A DNA stretch of 52,907 nt from Pedobacter sp. (lineage in GTDB: Bacteria > Bacteroidota > Bacteroidia > Sphingobacteriales > Sphingobacteriaceae), in assembly GCA_014377665.1 (NCBI GenBank), contig JACMPF010000076.1, forward strand, positions 1 to 52,907. The letters run 5' to 3'. Shown piece after piece: positions 36,374-47,382 of this stretch (within the stretch, counting starts at the first letter, position 1; the number at the start of each line of letters is the position of its first letter). The notes beneath the pieces were generated by a model. It was not told the DNA's origin, searched no databases, and saw nothing but the letters and a program-made list of their open reading frames with translations. Made by a program: the position numbers and the translations under genes.

Positions 36374-38373
36374 TGTATATAAAGATATTCCTTCTTGTTT
36401 TCTTTTTAGCCCTATCAGTTACATCTAACTTATTTGCTCAGGATCTAAAAACCAAGGTAAATGACAATAAGGAGCTGGATTCGTTGAGAAAGATGGAAGA
36501 GGAAGGCAAGGATTCTGTGATTTTTACTTCAAAGTACATTCGTTACACTACTTTGAGACTTACCAAAGACAGTATCCAAACAATTCCCCTTGATACCACG
36601 CTTAATGGCTTTCAGAATTTTAGCGTGCTTGTTCAGCCAAGAAGACCTACGGTAGGACTGGGAAATTTAGGACTTTCTGCTCTGCCAATGCTGTTTGAAC
36701 CGCTTAAAACTATCGGTTTTGATGCTGGTTTCCATACGCTTGATTATTATGCGTTGACGAACGAAGACGTTAGGTATTATCAAGCCAGGGCACCTTTTAC
36801 CAGCCTTTACTACGTAAACTCTGGTGAGATTGAGCAGGTTTTCAAAGTGATACATTCACAGAATATAAATAAGAACCTCAATATAGGACTGAATTTTAAT
36901 AGAATTGGAGCAAACGGTAAGTATTCACATCAGCGAGGGGATCACCTTAATGGTGCTCTGTTCAGCTGGTTTCAATCTCCAAGTAAGAGGTATAACCTAT
37001 GGACGAATATTGTTTTTAATACACTCAAAGCTGAAGAAAACGGTTCTATAAGGAACGATACTATTTTCACAAAGCCAACATTTAGCATAGAAAGAGAAGC
37101 ACAAGCGACTAGGCTAACTACGGCTAAAAGAATTTACCGTCAGAGGGCATTTATACTAAAACAGACCTATTTTGTTGGTCGGATCGATAGTTTAGCTGAG
37201 GCAGCAGGAAGGAAGATTTTGCCTACCAATAAGATTGCATACACATTAAAATATGATGCCAATTCTTACACATTCAAAAAGGATGAAGCAGATGACAACT
37301 CCGCATTACCACCCGGCATAGCTGATAAAACCTATACAAACGATAGTACAAGGTATAATCACGTGCAAAATGAATTTATCTATAGCTTCTTTCTGAGGGC
37401 TAAATCTTCTGTGCTTATAAAAAACGAACTCAAGCTTGACGTTGGTATAAAGCACGATTACTACAAATACAATCAGTTTGTGCTGTTCAAGGACAATGCT
37501 AAATATTATGGCTATAATGCCTCTTTCCAAAATGTCACACTTCTTGGAAATGCCGGATACCGATTAAGTGATAAAATTGATTTAAATGTTGATTTGCAAC
37601 AAATATTCCAAGGCCGCAACACTGGAGATTTTTTATATGAAGCAAAAAGTAACGTGCTGTTGAGTAAATCTGTAGGCAGAATCATTCTTGGAGCCTACTT
37701 TCAAAATAAATCACCAGAAGAAATCTATACCAGATATGTAGGTAACCATTACAATTGGGACAATAACTTTGACCGGACAAAGACAATTAATTTCTCCTTT
37801 AATTATCTTAATGAAGAACTGGGTTTTGATGCCGGAGCTCAGTATTATTTAGTTACTAATTATTTGTATTTTTCACAACCGAATGCGAATTCACTGATAA
37901 TCGCGCCTTCACAATCCGCATCTCCGATAAACTTGTTAAAGATCTCGGCTGGAAAGAAGTTTAAGTTCGGAAAGTTTAACCTTGATGCTTATGTGGTTTA
38001 TCAAAAAACAGACAATCCTGGCATCTTAGGAACTCCAGAGCTTTACTCTTTCAATACTTTTTATCTCGATCAAACTTTTTTCAAGGTACTAAAGACGAAT
38101 ATTGGATTTGATGTGCGTTACAATACTCCGTATTCAAATTATTCTTACTCAGCTGCTGCCGGACAGTTTTATGTTGGTTCAAGCAGGAAGTTTAATACAA
38201 CACCAATTATTGATGTTTGGGTAAAAGCGAGCTTGCGTAGAGCCAATCTCTTTCTGAAATTCGATTATGTCAATCAAGGCCTTGATCTTTTAGGATACAA
38301 TACCATTAACAATTATCCAATGCAGGACAGGGCATTATTCAAATTCGGAGTAAACTGGAATTTCTACGATTAG
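36373..38373 (+). CDS. Putative porin, Porin_10-like
   Basis: 666 residues with a signal peptide (about 1-22, ending LFAQ), then a region with TTLNGFQNFSVLVQPRRPTVGLGNLG and repeated amphipathic beta strands with aromatic ends through to the C-terminal FGVNWNFYD. This matches the large putative porins of Bacteroidota (Porin_10). The start overlaps the phosphorylase stop by one base (TAATG), so lpxK, the phosphorylase and this porin probably form one operon. Substrate unknown. The stop codon overlaps the stop of the convergent gene within the tetranucleotide TTAG. Confidence 0.85.
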   Translation: MYIKIFLLVFFLALSVTSNLFAQDLKTKVNDNKELDSLRKMEEEGKDSVIFTSKYIRYTTLRLTKDSIQTIPLDTTLNGFQNFSVLVQPRRPTVGLGNLGLSALPMLFEPLKTIGFDAGFHTLDYYALTNEDVRYYQARAPFTSLYYVNSGEIEQVFKVIHSQNINKNLNIGLNFNRIGANGKYSHQRGDHLNGALFSWFQSPSKRYNLWTNIVFNTLKAEENGSIRNDTIFTKPTFSIEREAQATRLTTAKRIYRQRAFILKQTYFVGRIDSLAEAAGRKILPTNKIAYTLKYDANSYTFKKDEADDNSALPPGIADKTYTNDSTRYNHVQNEFIYSFFLRAKSSVLIKNELKLDVGIKHDYYKYNQFVLFKDNAKYYGYNASFQNVTLLGNAGYRLSDKIDLNVDLQQIFQGRNTGDFLYEAKSNVLLSKSVGRIILGAYFQNKSPEEIYTRYVGNHYNWDNNFDRTKTINFSFNYLNEELGFDAGAQYYLVTNYLYFSQPNANSLIIAPSQSASPINLLKISAGKKFKFGKFNLDAYVVYQKTDNPGILGTPELYSFNTFYLDQTFFKVLKTNIGFDVRYNTPYSNYSYSAAAGQFYVGSSRKFNTTPIIDVWVKASLRRANLFLKFDYVNQGLDLLGYNTINNYPMQDRALFKFGVNWNFYD

Positions 38374-39632
38374 GTTTTCTGATGTTTTTTCTTAGCTGCA
38401 GGAAACAATACGTTGTTTAGAATCAACCGGTAACCAGGTGAGTTTGGGTGCAGGTTTAAATCTGTCGGGGGATCACCAACCTGGTGCTGGTAATCCTCTG
38501 GATCATGCCCGCCATAGAAGGTGAATCTTCCTTTTCCTATCTCTCCGTTTAAATACCTTACCTCTTCAGCACCTTTGTTCTCTCCAAGTACGGTGATGTT
38601 TGGCTTAACTAATCGTTTCTTAAAAGCCGTCGTTTGTCCCATAAATCCTTTTATAACCTTATCGTGGTTTTGAGTAAGCATTGAGGGAACAAGGTCCCAT
38701 TTTGCTGAGAAGTCGAACAGCGTAAAGAAATCATTTGATTCGTTTAGAATTCTATTTTGAGTGACATCAATATCTGAGAACTCATAGTTAGAAGGATTGA
38801 TGTCCAGCCTAAAGTCTTTAAATGCAAAGGTTTTACTATAATCTATCTTGCTTTGTGCTTTTGGATCTGCTGCGTCACCATCAAACATACTTTCACAAAT
38901 ATCAACACCATCGGCGCTGAGAGCGATGTCAAAACTATCAGTGCCAGAGCACATTGCAAATAAGAATCCGCCACCTGAGCAAAACTCTTTTATTCTTTTA
39001 GCAACTGCGAGCTTCACTTGAGAAACTTTGCTAAACCCGTTTCGCTTCGCTGTAGCTTCCTGATTTTTTACGTCTTCCCTGTACCAGGTAGCATTTTTAA
39101 AACTTGCCCAAAACTTACCATACTGTCCTGTAAAGTCTTCGTGGTGTAAGTGCAGCCAGTCGTAATCAGCCAGTTTATTTTTTAAAACATCGTCGTCATA
39201 GATTACGTCGTAAGGAATCTCTGCATAAGTAAGCACCATTGTTACCGCATCATCCCATGGAAGCTTGCTTTTCGGCGAATAAACGGCCATTTTAGGCGCT
39301 TTTTCTAACTTTACTATTTCCATGTTTACTTGTGGGTCGCTAATTTCGTTCAACATGGCGGATACCTTTCCATCGGCGAGTACCTGATAAGATACGCCAC
39401 GGGTTTTGCACTCATCTTCAATCGTTCTATTGTAGTCTATTAAGAAACTACCACCCCGATAGTTTAAAAGCCAACTCACATCTGCCTGCTGTTTTATGCC
39501 CCAATAGGCGATTCCGTAGGCTTTCAAATGATTCTTTTGGTCCTCATCCATATAAATAAGAATTGAGGATGCCCGGACGGCTATACTGAGTATGATGAAG
39601 AATATTGTGAGACTTAGTTTTTTATGTTTCAT
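38370..39632 (-). CDS. Secreted amidotransferase-like protein (often named asparagine synthetase B)
   Basis: 420 residues from the chosen ATG. The signal peptide MKHKKLSLTIFFIILSIAVRA is followed by SSILIYMDEDQKNHLKAYGIAYW, which I associate with Bacteroidota proteins labelled asparagine synthetase B. No N-terminal Cys nucleophile or ATP-pyrophosphatase motif of true AsnB is present. A glutamine-amidotransferase-like segment occurs instead: CSGGGFLFAMCSGTDSFDIAL, in which the Cys of AMCSG could be a nucleophile elbow, with a later YGGHDPED. Function unknown and probably periplasmic. The open frame extends 11 codons upstream to a TTG; the ATG gives a cleaner signal peptide. Confidence 0.75.
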   Translation of the reverse strand: MKHKKLSLTIFFIILSIAVRASSILIYMDEDQKNHLKAYGIAYWGIKQQADVSWLLNYRGGSFLIDYNRTIEDECKTRGVSYQVLADGKVSAMLNEISDPQVNMEIVKLEKAPKMAVYSPKSKLPWDDAVTMVLTYAEIPYDVIYDDDVLKNKLADYDWLHLHHEDFTGQYGKFWASFKNATWYREDVKNQEATAKRNGFSKVSQVKLAVAKRIKEFCSGGGFLFAMCSGTDSFDIALSADGVDICESMFDGDAADPKAQSKIDYSKTFAFKDFRLDINPSNYEFSDIDVTQNRILNESNDFFTLFDFSAKWDLVPSMLTQNHDKVIKGFMGQTTAFKKRLVKPNITVLGENKGAEEVRYLNGEIGKGRFTFYGGHDPEDYQHQVGDPPTDLNLHPNSPGYRLILNNVLFPAAKKKHQKT

Positions 39633-39683
39633 AGGTATGTTCCTGTGAATATAACTTTTTTTCAAAATAAAAAGTATTTTATC

Positions 39684-41515: not shown

Positions 41516-43687
41516 ATGAGAAAATTATTCGCATGCTTTGCATTAAGTGTTTTGGTTCAATTAGTTTCTGCTCAGAATAATCCGGAAAAAACAGCTTTTC
41601 AGACAGGAAGTCCATGGAGACCAGAAATTGATGTCAGATCGGATATAGCGATTATCTACGGGGCAAATGACCGTAAAAATATGACATTCCAAGAAAGAGT
41701 AAAATCTTGGCGAGACCGCGGTTATCAAACAGATTTTATGACCGGAATCGCTTGGGGTGATTACGGAGATTATTTTCTCGGAAAGTGGGATGGGCAAAAT
41801 CATATGGGTATTGGCCAAGTTCAGATGAATGGGGATACCATCTGGCATAATAAAGGAGTGGTTCCTTACATTGTGCCTGTAAAATCGTTCATAGAATATA
41901 TGAAAACGGCAGTAGTAAAAAAGGTGATTGATGCGGGAATCACAAATGTATTTTTAGAAGAGCCAGAATTCTGGGCAAGAGCTGGATATGAGCAACCTTT
42001 TAAGGAAGAATGGCAACGCTATTATGGATTTCCCTGGAGAGCTCAACATTTATCAGCAGAGAACACCTACCTCTCAAATAAGCTTAAATATCAACTCTAC
42101 TTTGATGCGATCAAAGAAGTTTCTGGCTATGCAAAGACGTATGGTAAGAGTAAAGGCCTAAACATCCGAGTATATATTGCGACTCATTCCCTTGTTAACT
42201 ATGCTTCCTGGAAAATTGTTAGTCCTGAGGCAAGCCTCGCGTCACTTCCCGGCATAGATGGGTACATTGCACAAGTTTGGACGGGTACCGCAAGGGAACC
42301 TGTTTTTTACAACGGTTTATCAAAGGAACGCGTATTCGAAAATGCATTTCTGGAATATGGTTCCATGGTGTCGATGACAGCTCCAACGAAAAGAAAATTG
42401 TTCTTTCTAACAGACCCCATTGAAGATCGCGAGCATGACTGGGCCGATTATAAGCGTAATTATGAAGCTACTTTCGTAGCAAAACTCATGTACCCTATGG
42501 TAGCAGATTATGAAGTTATGCCATGGCCCGAAAGAATATATACCCGTCCATATAAGGTGGCTAATAGCACTGAGCAAGTATTGATTCCTCAATACTATTC
42601 TACTCAAATGCAGGTGATGGTTAATTCACTAAACAGCATTCAAGTATCCGACAATAAAGTTTCCGGCGTAAATAGCATCGGCGTTCTGATGGGCAACTCG
42701 TTGATGTTTCAGAGCTATCCATCTCATGACGGTTATGAAGACCCCTACTTTTCCAATTTCTACGGGCAAACAATTCCACTCTTGAAGCACGGTATTCCAG
42801 TGCAGACTGTTCATATGGAAAATCTTTCCTATGTGGCATCTCTAAAGGATATTAAAGTATTGCTGGTAAGCTATTCAAATATGAAACCGAATTCAGCAGA
42901 GGTGCATACGTACATCTCAAATTGGGTTCGGAATGGAGGAGTGCTTATTTATTGCGGAAGAGACAATGACCCTTATCAAACTGTCTTGGAGTGGTGGAAT
43001 TCCTCAGGAAATGCATTTAAATCTCCTGCAGAACACCTCTTTTACACTTTGGGGATCAAGCCTTCACTCAGTAATAATCAAGATTTTGTAGTTGGGAAGG
43101 GAGCTGTGCATGTGCTTAGAAAGAATCCTAAGGAGTTTGTAATGGAAATCTCAGGTGCCGACGTATTGCTCTCTACTATTAAGCTTGCCTATGAAAGAGA
43201 TGCCAAAGCTGGATTATTAAATTTTAAAAATAACCTAGTTGTACATCGTGGTCCTTATGACATCGTTGCGGTAATGGATGAAAGTGTAAATGCCGAGCCG
43301 GTCGTTGTAAAAGATCTTGTAATCGATTTGTTTGATCCTCAGCTTCCGATATTAAATGGCAAGACTGTAGTGTCGGGAGCGCAAGCTTACCTATATAACT
43401 TATCAAGAGTTAATAACAGAGCCAAACCGCAAGTGCTTGCAACTGCTGCGAGAGTTTATAATGAGGAAACCACAAGCAACAGTTATAGTTTTATAGCCAA
43501 AAGTCCGATTAATACCCTCAATAGCATGAGGGTACTTTTGCCAAAAGCATTCAAAAAAGTGCTCGCTACTAATGCCGAATCCGGCGAGATTAAAGAACTT
43601 AAAGCAATGTGGGACGAGCGTTCTAAAACAGTATATCTTGGCTTTCCGAATAACCCGGAAGGTGTGAAAATCGTCATTTTCTGGTAA
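41516..43687 (+). CDS. Secreted putative glycoside hydrolase-like protein
   Basis: 723 residues with a signal peptide (about 1-19, cleavage near VSAQ). The N-terminal 370 residues look like a TIM-barrel hydrolase: GITNVFLEEPEFWARAGYEQPF places candidate catalytic acids at E148, E149 or E151 at the end of a strand, with DGYIAQVWTGTAR and LFFLTDPIEDREHDW following. Residues about 385-500 resemble a Rossmann or amidotransferase-like domain (SIGVLMGNSLMFQ, IKVLLVSYSNMKP, NWVRNGGVLIYCGRD), as in the trimerisation domain of GH42 enzymes. The C-terminal part is beta-rich. No exact family recognised; substrate unknown. Upstream is the CDGSH gene; downstream, after 18 bases, a secreted C1 peptidase. 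Confidence 0.7.
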   Translation: MRKLFACFALSVLVQLVSAQNNPEKTAFQTGSPWRPEIDVRSDIAIIYGANDRKNMTFQERVKSWRDRGYQTDFMTGIAWGDYGDYFLGKWDGQNHMGIGQVQMNGDTIWHNKGVVPYIVPVKSFIEYMKTAVVKKVIDAGITNVFLEEPEFWARAGYEQPFKEEWQRYYGFPWRAQHLSAENTYLSNKLKYQLYFDAIKEVSGYAKTYGKSKGLNIRVYIATHSLVNYASWKIVSPEASLASLPGIDGYIAQVWTGTAREPVFYNGLSKERVFENAFLEYGSMVSMTAPTKRKLFFLTDPIEDREHDWADYKRNYEATFVAKLMYPMVADYEVMPWPERIYTRPYKVANSTEQVLIPQYYSTQMQVMVNSLNSIQVSDNKVSGVNSIGVLMGNSLMFQSYPSHDGYEDPYFSNFYGQTIPLLKHGIPVQTVHMENLSYVASLKDIKVLLVSYSNMKPNSAEVHTYISNWVRNGGVLIYCGRDNDPYQTVLEWWNSSGNAFKSPAEHLFYTLGIKPSLSNNQDFVVGKGAVHVLRKNPKEFVMEISGADVLLSTIKLAYERDAKAGLLNFKNNLVVHRGPYDIVAVMDESVNAEPVVVKDLVIDLFDPQLPILNGKTVVSGAQAYLYNLSRVNNRAKPQVLATAARVYNEETTSNSYSFIAKSPINTLNSMRVLLPKAFKKVLATNAESGEIKELKAMWDERSKTVYLGFPNNPEGVKIVIFW

Positions 43688-43705: not shown

Positions 43706-44899
43706 ATGACTTACAATTCGATTAAATCTTTATTACTGGGAGCAGGCTTATTTCTTGGGTTGGCTTCAGGCTATTCGCAAGACAATCTAATCTACTCCCT
43801 TAAACATAATGAAAGTGAGAATAGCGCAGGCTCTTTTAAATTTACGCCAATAGTAAATGCGGAAGCTACATCTATTAAGGATCAGAAATCTTCCGGTACC
43901 TGCTGGAGTTACAGCACGAACTCTTTTTTAGAGTCTGAAATGATCAGAATAGGGAAGAAGCCGGTAGATATCGCAGATTTATACACTGCTAGAAACACTT
44001 ATATCGAAAAGGGTATCAATTATGTAAGGATGCATGGCGCATTAACATTGGGAGATGGAGGAGCTTGCCATGATGTGATCAACATGTTTGCTAAATATGG
44101 TGCCATGCCTCAGGAGGCCTACCTAGGTAATGGCTACGGAACCGGAAGAACATCTGACAGGATGAACGCGGTCACAAAAGTGATCCTGGAAAAGGCAGTT
44201 AATACTCCTGAAGGTAAATTTAATCCAAACTGGAAAGCGCAATATATCAGAGCAATTGATTCTTGTATGGGTGCAGTACCCGAAAGTTTCAGTTATGAAG
44301 GGAAAACCTATACACCTAAAACATTCGCCTCGGAAGTTGTAGGGATAAACCCGGTAGACTATGTGGAGCTATCTTCGTTTAACACATCGCCGTACTACAA
44401 AAAAGCGGTACTAATGGTCCCTGATAATTGGTCTTATGATCAGGTTTATAATGTTCAAATGGATGACATTACCAATATTATTGATAATGCTTTGAAGGGT
44501 GGATTCACTATTGCCTGGGCTACTGATGTTAGCGAGAAAGGTTTCAGCTGGAAAAATGGCATTGCCTATGTCCCTACAAAAGATGTACAGGATATGACGG
44601 CAGATGAAAAGAGAAACATGTTCAACGGTCCTAAACCGGAGAGACAAATTACAGTTGAAATGCGTCAGGCCTCATTTGATAACTATCAGACCACTGATGA
44701 TCATGGTATGCAAATCACAGGTATAGCTAAAGACCAAAACGGGAAAGAATATTATATAGTGAAAAACTCATGGGGTACGTCAAATGATTACAAAGGATAT
44801 CTTTATGTAACCAAGAACTTCGTGAAATATAAAACAACGGCTTTTCTACTTAATAAGAATGGGATTCCAGCTGAGATTAGAAAAAAATTAGCGTTATAG
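43706..44899 (+). CDS. Secreted C1 (bleomycin hydrolase-like) aminopeptidase
   Basis: 397 residues. The papain-type catalytic set is complete: C66 in DQKSSGTCWSYS, H333 in TTDDHGMQITG and N354 in IVKNSWGTS. The long insert between the Cys and His regions and the pattern of DLYTARNTYIEKGINYVRMHG match bleomycin hydrolase/PepC rather than papain. Unlike cytosolic PepC it has a signal peptide (about 1-25, ending GYSQ), so it probably acts in the periplasm or outside. No lipobox Cys is present. It follows the hydrolase gene by 18 bases. Confidence 0.9.
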   Translation: MTYNSIKSLLLGAGLFLGLASGYSQDNLIYSLKHNESENSAGSFKFTPIVNAEATSIKDQKSSGTCWSYSTNSFLESEMIRIGKKPVDIADLYTARNTYIEKGINYVRMHGALTLGDGGACHDVINMFAKYGAMPQEAYLGNGYGTGRTSDRMNAVTKVILEKAVNTPEGKFNPNWKAQYIRAIDSCMGAVPESFSYEGKTYTPKTFASEVVGINPVDYVELSSFNTSPYYKKAVLMVPDNWSYDQVYNVQMDDITNIIDNALKGGFTIAWATDVSEKGFSWKNGIAYVPTKDVQDMTADEKRNMFNGPKPERQITVEMRQASFDNYQTTDDHGMQITGIAKDQNGKEYYIVKNSWGTSNDYKGYLYVTKNFVKYKTTAFLLNKNGIPAEIRKKLAL

Positions 44900-44934: not shown

Positions 44935-47382
44935 CTAAAATCCGTAGGATAACTTAAATCCATGTTCCACACGTTTGTTTCCATCATAAGCGAACCCGTA
45001 TGTAGCTCTAAAAATCAGGCGTTGTAGTCCAAAATAGAATTCTTTATAATCCCTTTTATCCGGTTGAGTTAGGTAGCTAGCACCCACGATTTCTTCAAAT
45101 TTGCCCTTACGTACTAATGGAATTTTGCTGCTGAAGAGGCCCGAAAAGTTATGCTCAATATGTGCCTCAATGTATTGCTGCTTAGTGCTGAATTGGTAGA
45201 AGTCAAGGAATAAAAACCTTCTCAATTCTGGTTTCACAAACAAGGCACTGTTGCCACGGAAGTGCTTGAAGTCGGGATAATACACGTTGTCGTTGTTAAA
45301 GAACTTGCCCGCCCCGGCTATGAAGGAGAAATAACCCCATAGACCTGCGCTGATCCTATCTTGTAGGATGGAGAAGTTAACTATGTCATAGTCCACAGAG
45401 CTATTTAGAATGCCATTAATACCTTTTCGATAGTTTAACATCAGCGTAGGGTATTTAGATTCCTGATAAAATTTTCCGTCCGGGCGTGTTATATATTGTT
45501 GGTTAAAAGTATAAGTGAGGGCACCACTCAGAGTTAGTGCAGTATAGTTTGGAAAGAGCGGTGTTTCTACGTCAGGACTGAAAGGATTGTTCGAGGTAAA
45601 TTCTTTGTTCTTAACATCTCTTATTTTGAAGGAGGTGTTGTTCACTAATGTAGAATTTCTTGAAAGGTCCGCTACAATGCTTACTTGTAAACCATTAAAA
45701 AGCTCTCTTGTAGTTCCGATATTTACAAACTCTTTCTTGTAGAATTTGATGAAATTGGTTTCAAATAATAAGGAGTTTACGGAGTTTGCTAACAGCGTCA
45801 TTGTGCCTAAGGGATTCAGGTCGTAGATGCCTGATCCTCCACTTACGCTGATATTGGCACGTTTAACCGGATCGTAATAATAGTTGGCTGTTAGGTTAGC
45901 CGTAAATTCTTTACTGGCAAAGCCATACCTCGCTTCTGGCCTTATGCTGTAATATTTTCTGTCTTCAAGATTTTTCAGATATGTGACGCCATAATTTATT
46001 GCGAAACCTTCAACTGTATTATAGATAAGCGCTTTCAATATAGGGTCAAAGCTTAAGGACTTTTTCTCGAAGCGATTGTTAATAGTATAACCAGAAACTA
46101 AAAGCTTAGCGATGCCGAACTTATTGTTTACTCGTTCAATCGAATCAAGGTATTTCTTGGACGTTTTTAATGCAGCTACGCTGTCTTTGCGAACATAATC
46201 CCTGCTTTCTTCAGCTGTTAGTGGAATTGGTCTGTTGTTAAGCCAGAACAAAGAATCTTTTTTGGTAACTGCTTTGGTGATTTTAAGTATCTCCCCTGTA
46301 AAATATCCCTTGGGGAATTCTGGATGAATATTGTAGTTGCTGTAGACACCAACATAATAGCCTTCAAACTTGAAACCCAAAACATTTCCATTGAACTGGA
46401 AATTGACGTTGGAAGGCATATAAGTGTTTCCTACTTTAAGAAACTGCTGAGATATTTTTAAAGTATCGATCAAGTTGACACCCGAGTTTTTCGAAAGGTA
46501 AACATCGGCGTCAACGATATGCCAGCTTTCATCCTGTATGTAAATCACCCCTCTAAATACTGGATCATGTTCTCTGCGTGGAATCACCTGAATTTTATTG
46601 ATGGTAGCACCAGCATCGCTAGTTACTCCCAGCAACTTATACCGATAAAAACTCATAGCGTTATCAGCAATAGGCGATACAAAGCCCCTCGAGCTCAATG
46701 TATTTTCCAAAAGAATATTTTGGTAGAAGTTAACCATCAGATCTGAGGCCTTATTAAAGCTAAAAGCATTATTTCTGCCGGCTACCTTTGATGATACCAT
46801 TTCCTCATGAATTTTGTCAGGTTGTTGAAAGGCAAAGCTTGACGTAGATTCGGACAAATAAAGTATTCCTTTTCTATTGGTGTCGAGATCCAACGTTTTC
46901 TGAATATCTCTGCCGAAGAATTTCTTGGGGGCACCAACAAGCTTTTGGACGCCCTTAATATATACTTTAGTATTAAATTCTTTGACCTCAGTTAGGTGGA
47001 ACTTTCGCTGTTTAATGGCTTGTCGGATGATCTCATAAGCTGGATCTTCGGCATTTCCATCTATAATGACTCCGGTAAGACTGTATGCCTCAGCAGTGAG
47101 CACCACATTCTCTGTATGAATTGCATTTACTGTTACGTTTAGCTCTTTAGATTTGTAGCCAATTGCCCGATATACAATAGTATATGTTCCCTTATCCAAT
47201 GCCAGACCATATACTCCATCAACATTCGCAGAAGTTCCTTTGGTTGTGCTTTTGATGTAAATCGATGCAAACGGTACAGGTTCTCCATCAGCATCTTTTA
47301 CAGTACCGCTAAGTTTCAATTGCTGAGCAGAAATACCCAAGGCGTTTAGTAAAAGGAAAATGGTAAAGTATATGTTCTTCAT
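44935..47382 (-). CDS. DUF5686 outer-membrane protein with carboxypeptidase-like N-terminal domain
   Basis: 815 residues. A signal peptide (about 1-19) is followed by a CarboxypepD_reg-like beta-sandwich (LKLSGTVKDADGEPVPFASIYIKSTTKGTSANVDG, residues about 23-57, through 105), then the DUF5686 region, and a C-terminal beta-barrel-like part with alternating strands ending KLSYGF. There is no TonB box or plug domain, so it is not a SusC-type receptor. Role unknown; probably an outer-membrane barrel. It is convergent with the C1 peptidase gene and divergent from kbl. Confidence 0.85.
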   Translation of the reverse strand: MKNIYFTIFLLLNALGISAQQLKLSGTVKDADGEPVPFASIYIKSTTKGTSANVDGVYGLALDKGTYTIVYRAIGYKSKELNVTVNAIHTENVVLTAEAYSLTGVIIDGNAEDPAYEIIRQAIKQRKFHLTEVKEFNTKVYIKGVQKLVGAPKKFFGRDIQKTLDLDTNRKGILYLSESTSSFAFQQPDKIHEEMVSSKVAGRNNAFSFNKASDLMVNFYQNILLENTLSSRGFVSPIADNAMSFYRYKLLGVTSDAGATINKIQVIPRREHDPVFRGVIYIQDESWHIVDADVYLSKNSGVNLIDTLKISQQFLKVGNTYMPSNVNFQFNGNVLGFKFEGYYVGVYSNYNIHPEFPKGYFTGEILKITKAVTKKDSLFWLNNRPIPLTAEESRDYVRKDSVAALKTSKKYLDSIERVNNKFGIAKLLVSGYTINNRFEKKSLSFDPILKALIYNTVEGFAINYGVTYLKNLEDRKYYSIRPEARYGFASKEFTANLTANYYYDPVKRANISVSGGSGIYDLNPLGTMTLLANSVNSLLFETNFIKFYKKEFVNIGTTRELFNGLQVSIVADLSRNSTLVNNTSFKIRDVKNKEFTSNNPFSPDVETPLFPNYTALTLSGALTYTFNQQYITRPDGKFYQESKYPTLMLNYRKGINGILNSSVDYDIVNFSILQDRISAGLWGYFSFIAGAGKFFNNDNVYYPDFKHFRGNSALFVKPELRRFLFLDFYQFSTKQQYIEAHIEHNFSGLFSSKIPLVRKGKFEEIVGASYLTQPDKRDYKEFYFGLQRLIFRATYGFAYDGNKRVEHGFKLSYGF

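Follow-up and report, generated by a model that had tools for sequence, protein, structure and literature searches.

A conserved Pedobacter protein with a GH42-type architecture, a putative glycoside hydrolase of mannan-derived oligosaccharides

Analysis of a contig of Pedobacter sp. (the window, i.e., the whole analyzed stretch of 52,907 nucleotides) revealed an open reading frame with an ATG start codon at positions 41516 to 43687 of the forward strand, encoding a protein of 723 amino acids that has full-length relatives in other genomes. With moderate confidence, the protein is interpreted here as a GH42-type glycoside hydrolase that acts on mannan-derived oligosaccharides and belongs to a family not catalogued in Pfam, in NCBIfam, or among PDB sequences. 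It is very likely a glycoside hydrolase because of its fold, its invariant carboxylates, and its context, and a role on a mannose-rich glycan is quite probable.

Domain architecture and candidate active site

The N terminus carries a predicted signal peptide (residues 1 to approximately 20; 41516..41575, forward strand), recognized by eye and consistent with the AlphaFold2 model, in which residues 2 to 16 form a helix and confidence is low at residues 16 to 21. Secretion, assumed in an initial annotation of the window, agrees with this signal peptide. By a crude rule, 63 of 80 relatives have secretory-looking N termini, 8 have lipoprotein-like N termini, and 9 have neither. The AlphaFold2 model, based on an alignment of 78 sequences (mean pLDDT, 92.5; pTM, 0.91), revealed three domains, all encoded on the forward strand, instead of the two of the initial annotation, which did not mention the C-terminal one. 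The (beta/alpha)8-type barrel characteristic of clan GH-A (residues ~25 to 375; 41588..42640), whose absence would have spoken against the initial annotation, was predicted with high confidence and is supported by fold matches. Its strands comprise residues 26 to 30, 44 to 48, 71 to 77, 144 to 148, 218 to 223, 249 to 255, 294 to 300, and 333 to 335, with strand membership and numbering being our own assignment from the model. An amidotransferase/Rossmann-like domain (residues ~385 to 562; 42668..43201) occupies the place of the GH42 trimerization domain; it had been noticed before as a GH42-like amidotransferase fold and was recovered in the model, by Foldseek and VIA-align, and weakly by hhalign. 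The remainder (residues ~570 to 723; 43223..43684) is a beta-strand-rich domain in the model. The three domains of GH42 enzymes (barrel, trimerization-type domain, and C-terminal beta domain) are therefore present in the model and fold match, with the final ~90 residues barely covered by fold matches; residues 19 to 632 are the range spanned by at least one fifth of the VIA-align matches.

Comparison of the whole model with the PDB by Foldseek placed GH42 beta-galactosidases first (4uzs; E = 7.3e-14). A beta-1,2-glucosyltransferase ranked fifth and GH164 beta-mannosidase eighth, ahead of a rhamnosidase, a GH167 enzyme, and lacto-N-biose phosphorylases (ranks 23 to 25). The best solved match in VIA-align was 1kwg (Z = 22.5; rmsd, 4.1; 516 aligned residues; 10% identity), followed by the single-barrel matches Cwp19, PgaB, beta-amylase, and GH35 (Z of 19 to 20 over ~285 to 310 residues). 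For the barrel modeled separately (pLDDT, 81.4), Foldseek listed a GH168 fucanase, then Cwp19 and a beta-amylase, and VIA-align gave GH42, PgaB, beta-amylase, and GH35 nearly tied at Z of 19 to 20, with GH42 and PgaB in the lead. Because the whole-chain matches point to GH42 but the barrel-only matches are mixed, the modeled protein appears to have a GH42-type architecture, with a barrel that by itself indicates no single mechanism; none was read from the ambiguous barrel-only folds.

Sequence profiles do not place the protein in GH42. At E ≤ 1 the protein did not match PF02449, which was also missing from the 12 families matched in 35 family members, and the single GH42-profile match of the genome that carries the window is another gene. 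When the whole protein was aligned with GH42 by hhalign, only the amidotransferase-like domain was covered (profile columns 391 to 488; P = 0.0018; probability, 14.9%), and the barrels could not be credibly aligned with those of 13 GH42 proteins. On this profile evidence GH42 membership was rejected, and the GH42-type architecture was kept.

An alignment of 79 sequences (the window protein, 77 relatives, and a Paenibacillus homologue) revealed 122 invariant positions out of 723, including E148, E149, E151, H224, N228, E238, E275, E280, D300, E303, D304, and E333. Sixteen acidic residues are invariant; 13 of them lie in the barrel, several at strand ends. In the motif FLEEPEF (residues 146 to 152; 41951..41971, forward strand), E148, E149, and E151 are identical in all 79 sequences; the initial annotation had given the motif, the numbering of these glutamates, and the open reading frame exactly. 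In the model the three glutamates sit where, by our own count, barrel strand 4 ends. The motif DPIED (residues 300 to 304; 42413..42427, forward strand), with D300, E303, and D304 identical in the 79 sequences, lies at the end of the seventh strand by our own count, and YEVMPWP (residues 332 to 338; 42509..42529, forward strand), with E333, P336, W337, and P338 identical, lies at the eighth. A glutamate is usual at strand 7 in clan GH-A enzymes. Of the two catalytic glutamates of GH42 enzymes and of the retaining GH-A mechanism, at strands 4 and 7, the first would correspond to E149, but by our count strand 7 carries the invariant D300, which would be a real difference from GH-A if the strand count is right.

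Distribution of the family and genomic context of the relatives

The window protein matched no Pfam family at the cut-off (two matched at E values of 0.14 and 0.19) and no NCBIfam family at E ≤ 1. A Pfam scan of 35 family members revealed 12 weakly matching families, the best being DUF4350 (9 of 35 members; E = 0.0011), and GLMA_2nd matched a single member weakly (E = 0.16). The initial annotation had assigned no glycoside hydrolase family, as is borne out by these scans, and its suggestion of a new family gains support from them as a possibility. Searches of the PDB sequences at E ≤ 10 with the single sequence (27 distinct sequences) and with a profile (15 sequences) revealed no significant match and no link to a solved glycosidase. 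The matches were mostly antibody light chains (best E values of 0.046 and 0.025, respectively), which were taken as chance.

A pattern search of contigs yielded 167 stretches, and 157 of these encode a relative by tblastn; the best 80 of the 157 are 56 to 75% identical, mostly over the full length. With 157 tblastn-confirmed stretches and 122 of 723 positions identical across 79 sequences, the family is not a product of chance. Thirteen minus-strand loci were set aside from the genome-search set, and three loci were dropped from the family alignment: L058, which runs off its contig, L072, which has no clear start, and L080 (Sphingobacterium sp. JB170), which has an in-frame stop. The L080 homologue stands in a SusC/SusD/GH76-type locus and is possibly a pseudogene or the result of a sequencing error.

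The relatives are mostly labeled Bacteroidota (Pedobacter, Mucilaginibacter, Chitinophagaceae, Prolixibacteraceae, Dysgonomonas, Bacteroides luti, and others), and one is labeled Phycisphaerae (L065). Another, labeled Williamsia sp. (L006), an actinobacterial name, lies on a contig with SusC/SusD and GH92, and the tree places it with Bacteroidota; its SusC/SusD neighborhood suggests that the assembly is probably mislabeled. Within the taxonomic family of the window, 44 of 201 genomes contained a match (the own genome included; one match is a fragment). Of 395 genomes in a phylum-wide sample, 4 had a match (the own genome among them), and every match was strong; this was a loose first look that could miss diverged relatives. 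The plasmid records yielded one match among 72,556, a gene of Paenibacillus cellulositrophicus on an 897-kb replicon (L153, 14986 to 17184; 37.6% identity over 98% of the query), which represents a Bacillota branch of the family. Its product has no signal peptide by eye, and genes for two ABC permeases and a solute-binding protein precede it. This neighborhood, which contains no annotated mannan enzyme, is in keeping with a protein that acts on imported oligosaccharides. A search of viral contigs for relatives of the Paenibacillus protein found none.

To describe the surroundings of the homologues, open reading frames were called up to 8 kb on each side in the best 80 of the 157 loci, clustered, named by Pfam, and rescanned with profiles. 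At least one of GH92, GH76, and GH125 was found within 8 kb in 48 of the 80 loci and none of the three in 32. GH92 occurred in 45 loci, GH76 in at most 20 (13 and 7 by two profiles), and GH125 in 8; SusC-type receptors were found in 55, SusD in 45, ROK kinase in 15, and an SGBP-like protein upstream in 28. In 32 of the 80 loci, GH92 follows the homologue immediately downstream on the same strand, at a distance of -20 to 241 bp. The SGBP-like protein (~250 to 280 amino acids, e.g., L027, 6837 to 7640) stands directly upstream of the homologue in 26 of the 80 loci. It is SGBP-like by position, has a weak DUF3823_C match (E = 0.011) and no Pfam family at the cut-off, and probably binds glycan. 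Mucilaginibacter loci such as L013 and L015 consist of SusC, SusD, SGBP, the homologue, and GH92, with no other clustered hydrolase in the cluster and with the unassigned genes beyond it partly scanned. Among 71 other same-strand neighbors scanned (71 of 95 cluster representatives, from 109 unassigned neighbors), GH38 and GH43 were found in 3 each and GH2, rhamnosidase, and fucosidase families in 1 or 2 each. Given the GH43, GH2, rhamnosidase, and fucosidase neighbors, some of the loci cannot plainly be assigned to mannan.

For 18 genomes, hand-picked from the 44 for room on the contig, two stretches elsewhere on the contig served as controls for the 18-kb stretch around the homologue (one homologue stretch was trimmed to 10 kb). 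At least one of GH92, GH76, and GH125 was present in 15 of 18 homologue stretches versus 2 of 36 control stretches. GH76 was found in 11 and 8 of 18 (two profiles) versus 0 of 36, SusD in 16 of 18 versus 9 of 36, and SusC in 16 of 18 versus 11 of 36, whereas GH125 alone was reversed (0 of 18 versus 2 of 36). For GH92 (8 of 18 versus 1 of 36), the Fisher p of 0.0003 is indicative only, because the genomes are related and the control is not independent of the 80 loci (at least 3 genomes are apparently common to both). Linkage to SusC/SusD and GH92/GH76/GH125 thus holds for the family but not for the window copy, which is an orphan. In a tree of the 79 sequences, rows with locus context (59) and without it (19, a class that includes short contigs) are scattered, with 15 context changes versus a shuffled mean of 17.2. 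A single loss of the locus context cannot be claimed from the tree, because 59 of 500 shuffles gave as few changes.

The window copy and the neighboring peptidase gene

The window copy stands among housekeeping-type genes (cyclophilin, LpxK, an aminotransferase, phenylalanyl-tRNA synthetase, and others), with a gene for a CDGSH protein just upstream. Downstream lie genes assigned by Pfam to a C1-like peptidase (43706 to 44899, forward strand) and a DUF5686 protein (44935 to 47382, reverse strand). No open reading frame of the window falls into the SusC or SusD clusters, and neither was found among 13 window proteins scanned with Pfam, in line with the initial annotation. The possibility that it drew from this absence, a non-polysaccharide substrate, is weak or unsupported: the relatives often stand in SusC/SusD loci with alpha-mannan hydrolases, and the own genome (81% complete) is rich in such enzymes. 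Since it has 12 GH92, 5 GH76, and 1 GH125 matches, the genome probably degrades alpha-mannan, although this gene stands elsewhere.

The initial annotation had also paired the hydrolase with the peptidase. The peptidase gene starts 18 bp after the hydrolase gene on the same strand, so that the two could be cotranscribed in the window genome, and in two other loci (L032 and L038) the homologue is followed by the peptidase 1 to 2 kb downstream and then by DUF5686. This proximity stands, but the linkage is not consistent. The closest relative among the best 80 (L002, 75% identity) has the same gene order, including DUF5686, without the peptidase, and none of 29 peptidase loci of other genomes, some of them cut short, has a homologue within 1.5 kb. 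Within the genus, three genomes (G120, G150, and G154) have the peptidase without the homologue and one (G094) has the reverse, at E limits of 1e-60 and 1e-5. The order shared by L002, L032, and L038 indicates a site common to several Pedobacter-type genomes. In four other genomes (L162 to L165) the peptidase lies within ~1.4 kb of DUF5686, with no homologue within 1.5 kb, and the peptidase and the DUF5686 protein possibly form a functional pair. Elsewhere in the window, positions 38370 to 39665 (reverse strand) encode a secreted-looking protein of 431 amino acids with no Pfam match at E ≤ 1, whose synteny is kept in L002 (86.5% identity).

Proposed function and comparison with known systems

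From the computed fold, conservation, family, and genomic association, we infer a hydrolase on the GH42-type plan, with a catalytic barrel, a trimerization-type domain, and a C-terminal beta domain, possibly acting as a trimer. In Bacteroidota the enzyme would work in the cell envelope on oligosaccharides from a mannose-rich, probably fungal, polysaccharide, which SusC/SusD would import and GH92, GH76, and GH125 would degrade. Known enzymes with the GH42 plan (GH42, GH164, and the GH5 exo-beta-mannosidase Op5Man5) cut beta-D or alpha-L bonds. Because of this and because the loci already contain alpha-mannosidases, our guess, guided by the model, is exo-acting removal of a beta-linked residue that alpha-mannosidases cannot cut. 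This residue could be beta-mannose, or galactofuranose, xylose, or the like attached as a beta-linked decoration. E149 on strand 4 would serve as the acid/base and D300 on strand 7 as the nucleophile or base, and the window copy may serve the same mannan pathway from outside the cluster. Several results weigh against this reading: the barrel-only fold matches are ambiguous (GH168 first in Foldseek and a near-tie in VIA-align), the seventh strand by our count ends in Asp and not in the usual GH-A Glu, hhalign relates the barrel credibly to no GH42 protein, 32 of 80 loci lack GH92, GH76, and GH125, GH125 is reversed in the control, GH43 (3 of 71) and individual rhamnosidase and fucosidase families also occur as neighbors, and the Paenibacillus neighborhood has no annotated mannan enzyme.

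The linkage to GH92/GH76 loci would equally suit an alpha-mannan enzyme that cuts an alpha-mannosidic bond, in a side chain or in endo mode, which GH92, GH76, and GH125 do not cut, and that uses carboxylates unlike those of clan GH-A. The L013/L015 loci, in which GH92 is the only accompanying hydrolase, and the first place of GH168 fucanases in the barrel-only Foldseek search point the same way. The three-domain GH42-type plan argues against it, since known enzymes built on that plan cut beta-D or alpha-L bonds, and we regard it as a serious but less probable alternative. A precedent is GH195, an endo-alpha-1,3-mannanase that works with a GH92 and is described as a distant relative of GH99 (PMC13063451); no GH99-type Pfam match was found for the window protein or the 35 members, and no GH99 structure was among the 50 matches listed per fold search, which excludes nothing. 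A diverged GH42-type beta-galactosidase or alpha-L-arabinopyranosidase, beyond the reach of the profile but with the GH42 mechanism, would explain why the top fold matches are GH42 enzymes over most of the protein and why hhalign aligns the amidotransferase-like domain weakly. It is quite improbable, given that PF02449 finds no match here although GH42-profile matches turned up in 46 of 101 genomes by the same search, that the barrel does not align, that the seventh strand by our count ends in Asp, and that the context is one of mannan and not galactan.

The 18-bp spacing and the L032 and L038 loci would fit a protein that works with the C1-like peptidase on glycoproteins or on some other substrate that is not a polysaccharide. 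We consider such a partnership highly improbable from the context: the peptidase is missing beside the homologue in L002, 0 of 29 peptidase loci have a homologue nearby, the two genes are uncoupled in the four genomes checked for both, and the relatives often stand in SusC/SusD loci. Mannoprotein glycans may nevertheless be a substrate. The assignment of the active site is itself inferred, and a GH99-related protein without catalytic machinery appears in the reference list of PMC13063451, both of which would suit a noncatalytic carbohydrate-binding protein that kept the barrel. The identity of 16 acidic residues in 79 sequences, 13 in the barrel and including the 37.6% identical homologue, makes this very improbable.

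Tentatively, the reading as a hydrolase of mannan-derived oligosaccharides can be extended to a glycoside hydrolase family that is new, has a cytoplasmic Bacillota branch, and combines the GH42-type body with an unusual active site, made up of E148-E149-E151 (strand 4), D300/E303/D304 (strand 7), and E333 (strand 8). It might cut a fungal mannan or galactomannan linkage unassigned so far, perhaps one that the GH92/GH76/GH125 scheme leaves unaccounted for in soil Bacteroidota. The architecture is already known; novelty of the family is set against Pfam, NCBIfam, and the PDB sequences, from which it is absent, and is a claim to test. Among the titles and abstract beginnings listed from open-licence PMC papers, none describes the family. 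Fungal cell-wall mannan is an important carbon source in soil, and a conserved protein that repeatedly adjoins GH92 but has no name in the libraries searched offers itself as a candidate for a step of mannan breakdown to which no enzyme has been assigned. The family also offers a concrete test of whether the GH42 body plan is reused for different active sites.

Among characterized systems, the alpha-mannan-inducible locus of Salegentibacter sp. Hel_I_6 contains GH92, GH76, and GH125 (PMC9213526); the families reported there (GH92, GH43, GH125, GH2, and GH76) give the present protein no name. GH195 of diatom-mannan loci, which works with one GH92 and two sulfatases (PMC13063451), is likewise a recently named family beside GH92 in a Bacteroidota locus. 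In contrast to the GH42-type plan modeled here, its description is that of a GH99-related enzyme having an open endo cleft. GH42 enzymes (1kwg and 4uzs) share the barrel, the amidotransferase-like trimerization domain, and the beta domain in the same order (Z of 22.5 over 516 residues), and E149 stands at the end of strand 4 by our count. They differ in sequence (~10% identity, no PF02449 match, and a barrel that profiles do not align), in the Asp that ends strand 7 by the same count, and in the mannan context. The GH164 beta-mannosidase of Bacteroides salyersiae (6t6g) has only 8 to 9% identity and is absent from the PDB chains found by sequence at E ≤ 10, but it resembles the protein in its whole-chain fold (Foldseek E = 1.1e-12) and comes from Bacteroidota and mannose chemistry. 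The GH5 exo-beta-mannosidase Op5Man5 combines the same barrel-plus-trimerization plan with catalytic glutamates at strands 4 and 7 (PMC8233224). It is absent from the PDB chains found by sequence and lacks the small C-terminal domain; its GH42-type architecture was recognized although the sequence has no significant similarity to GH42, and it is active as a beta-mannosidase.
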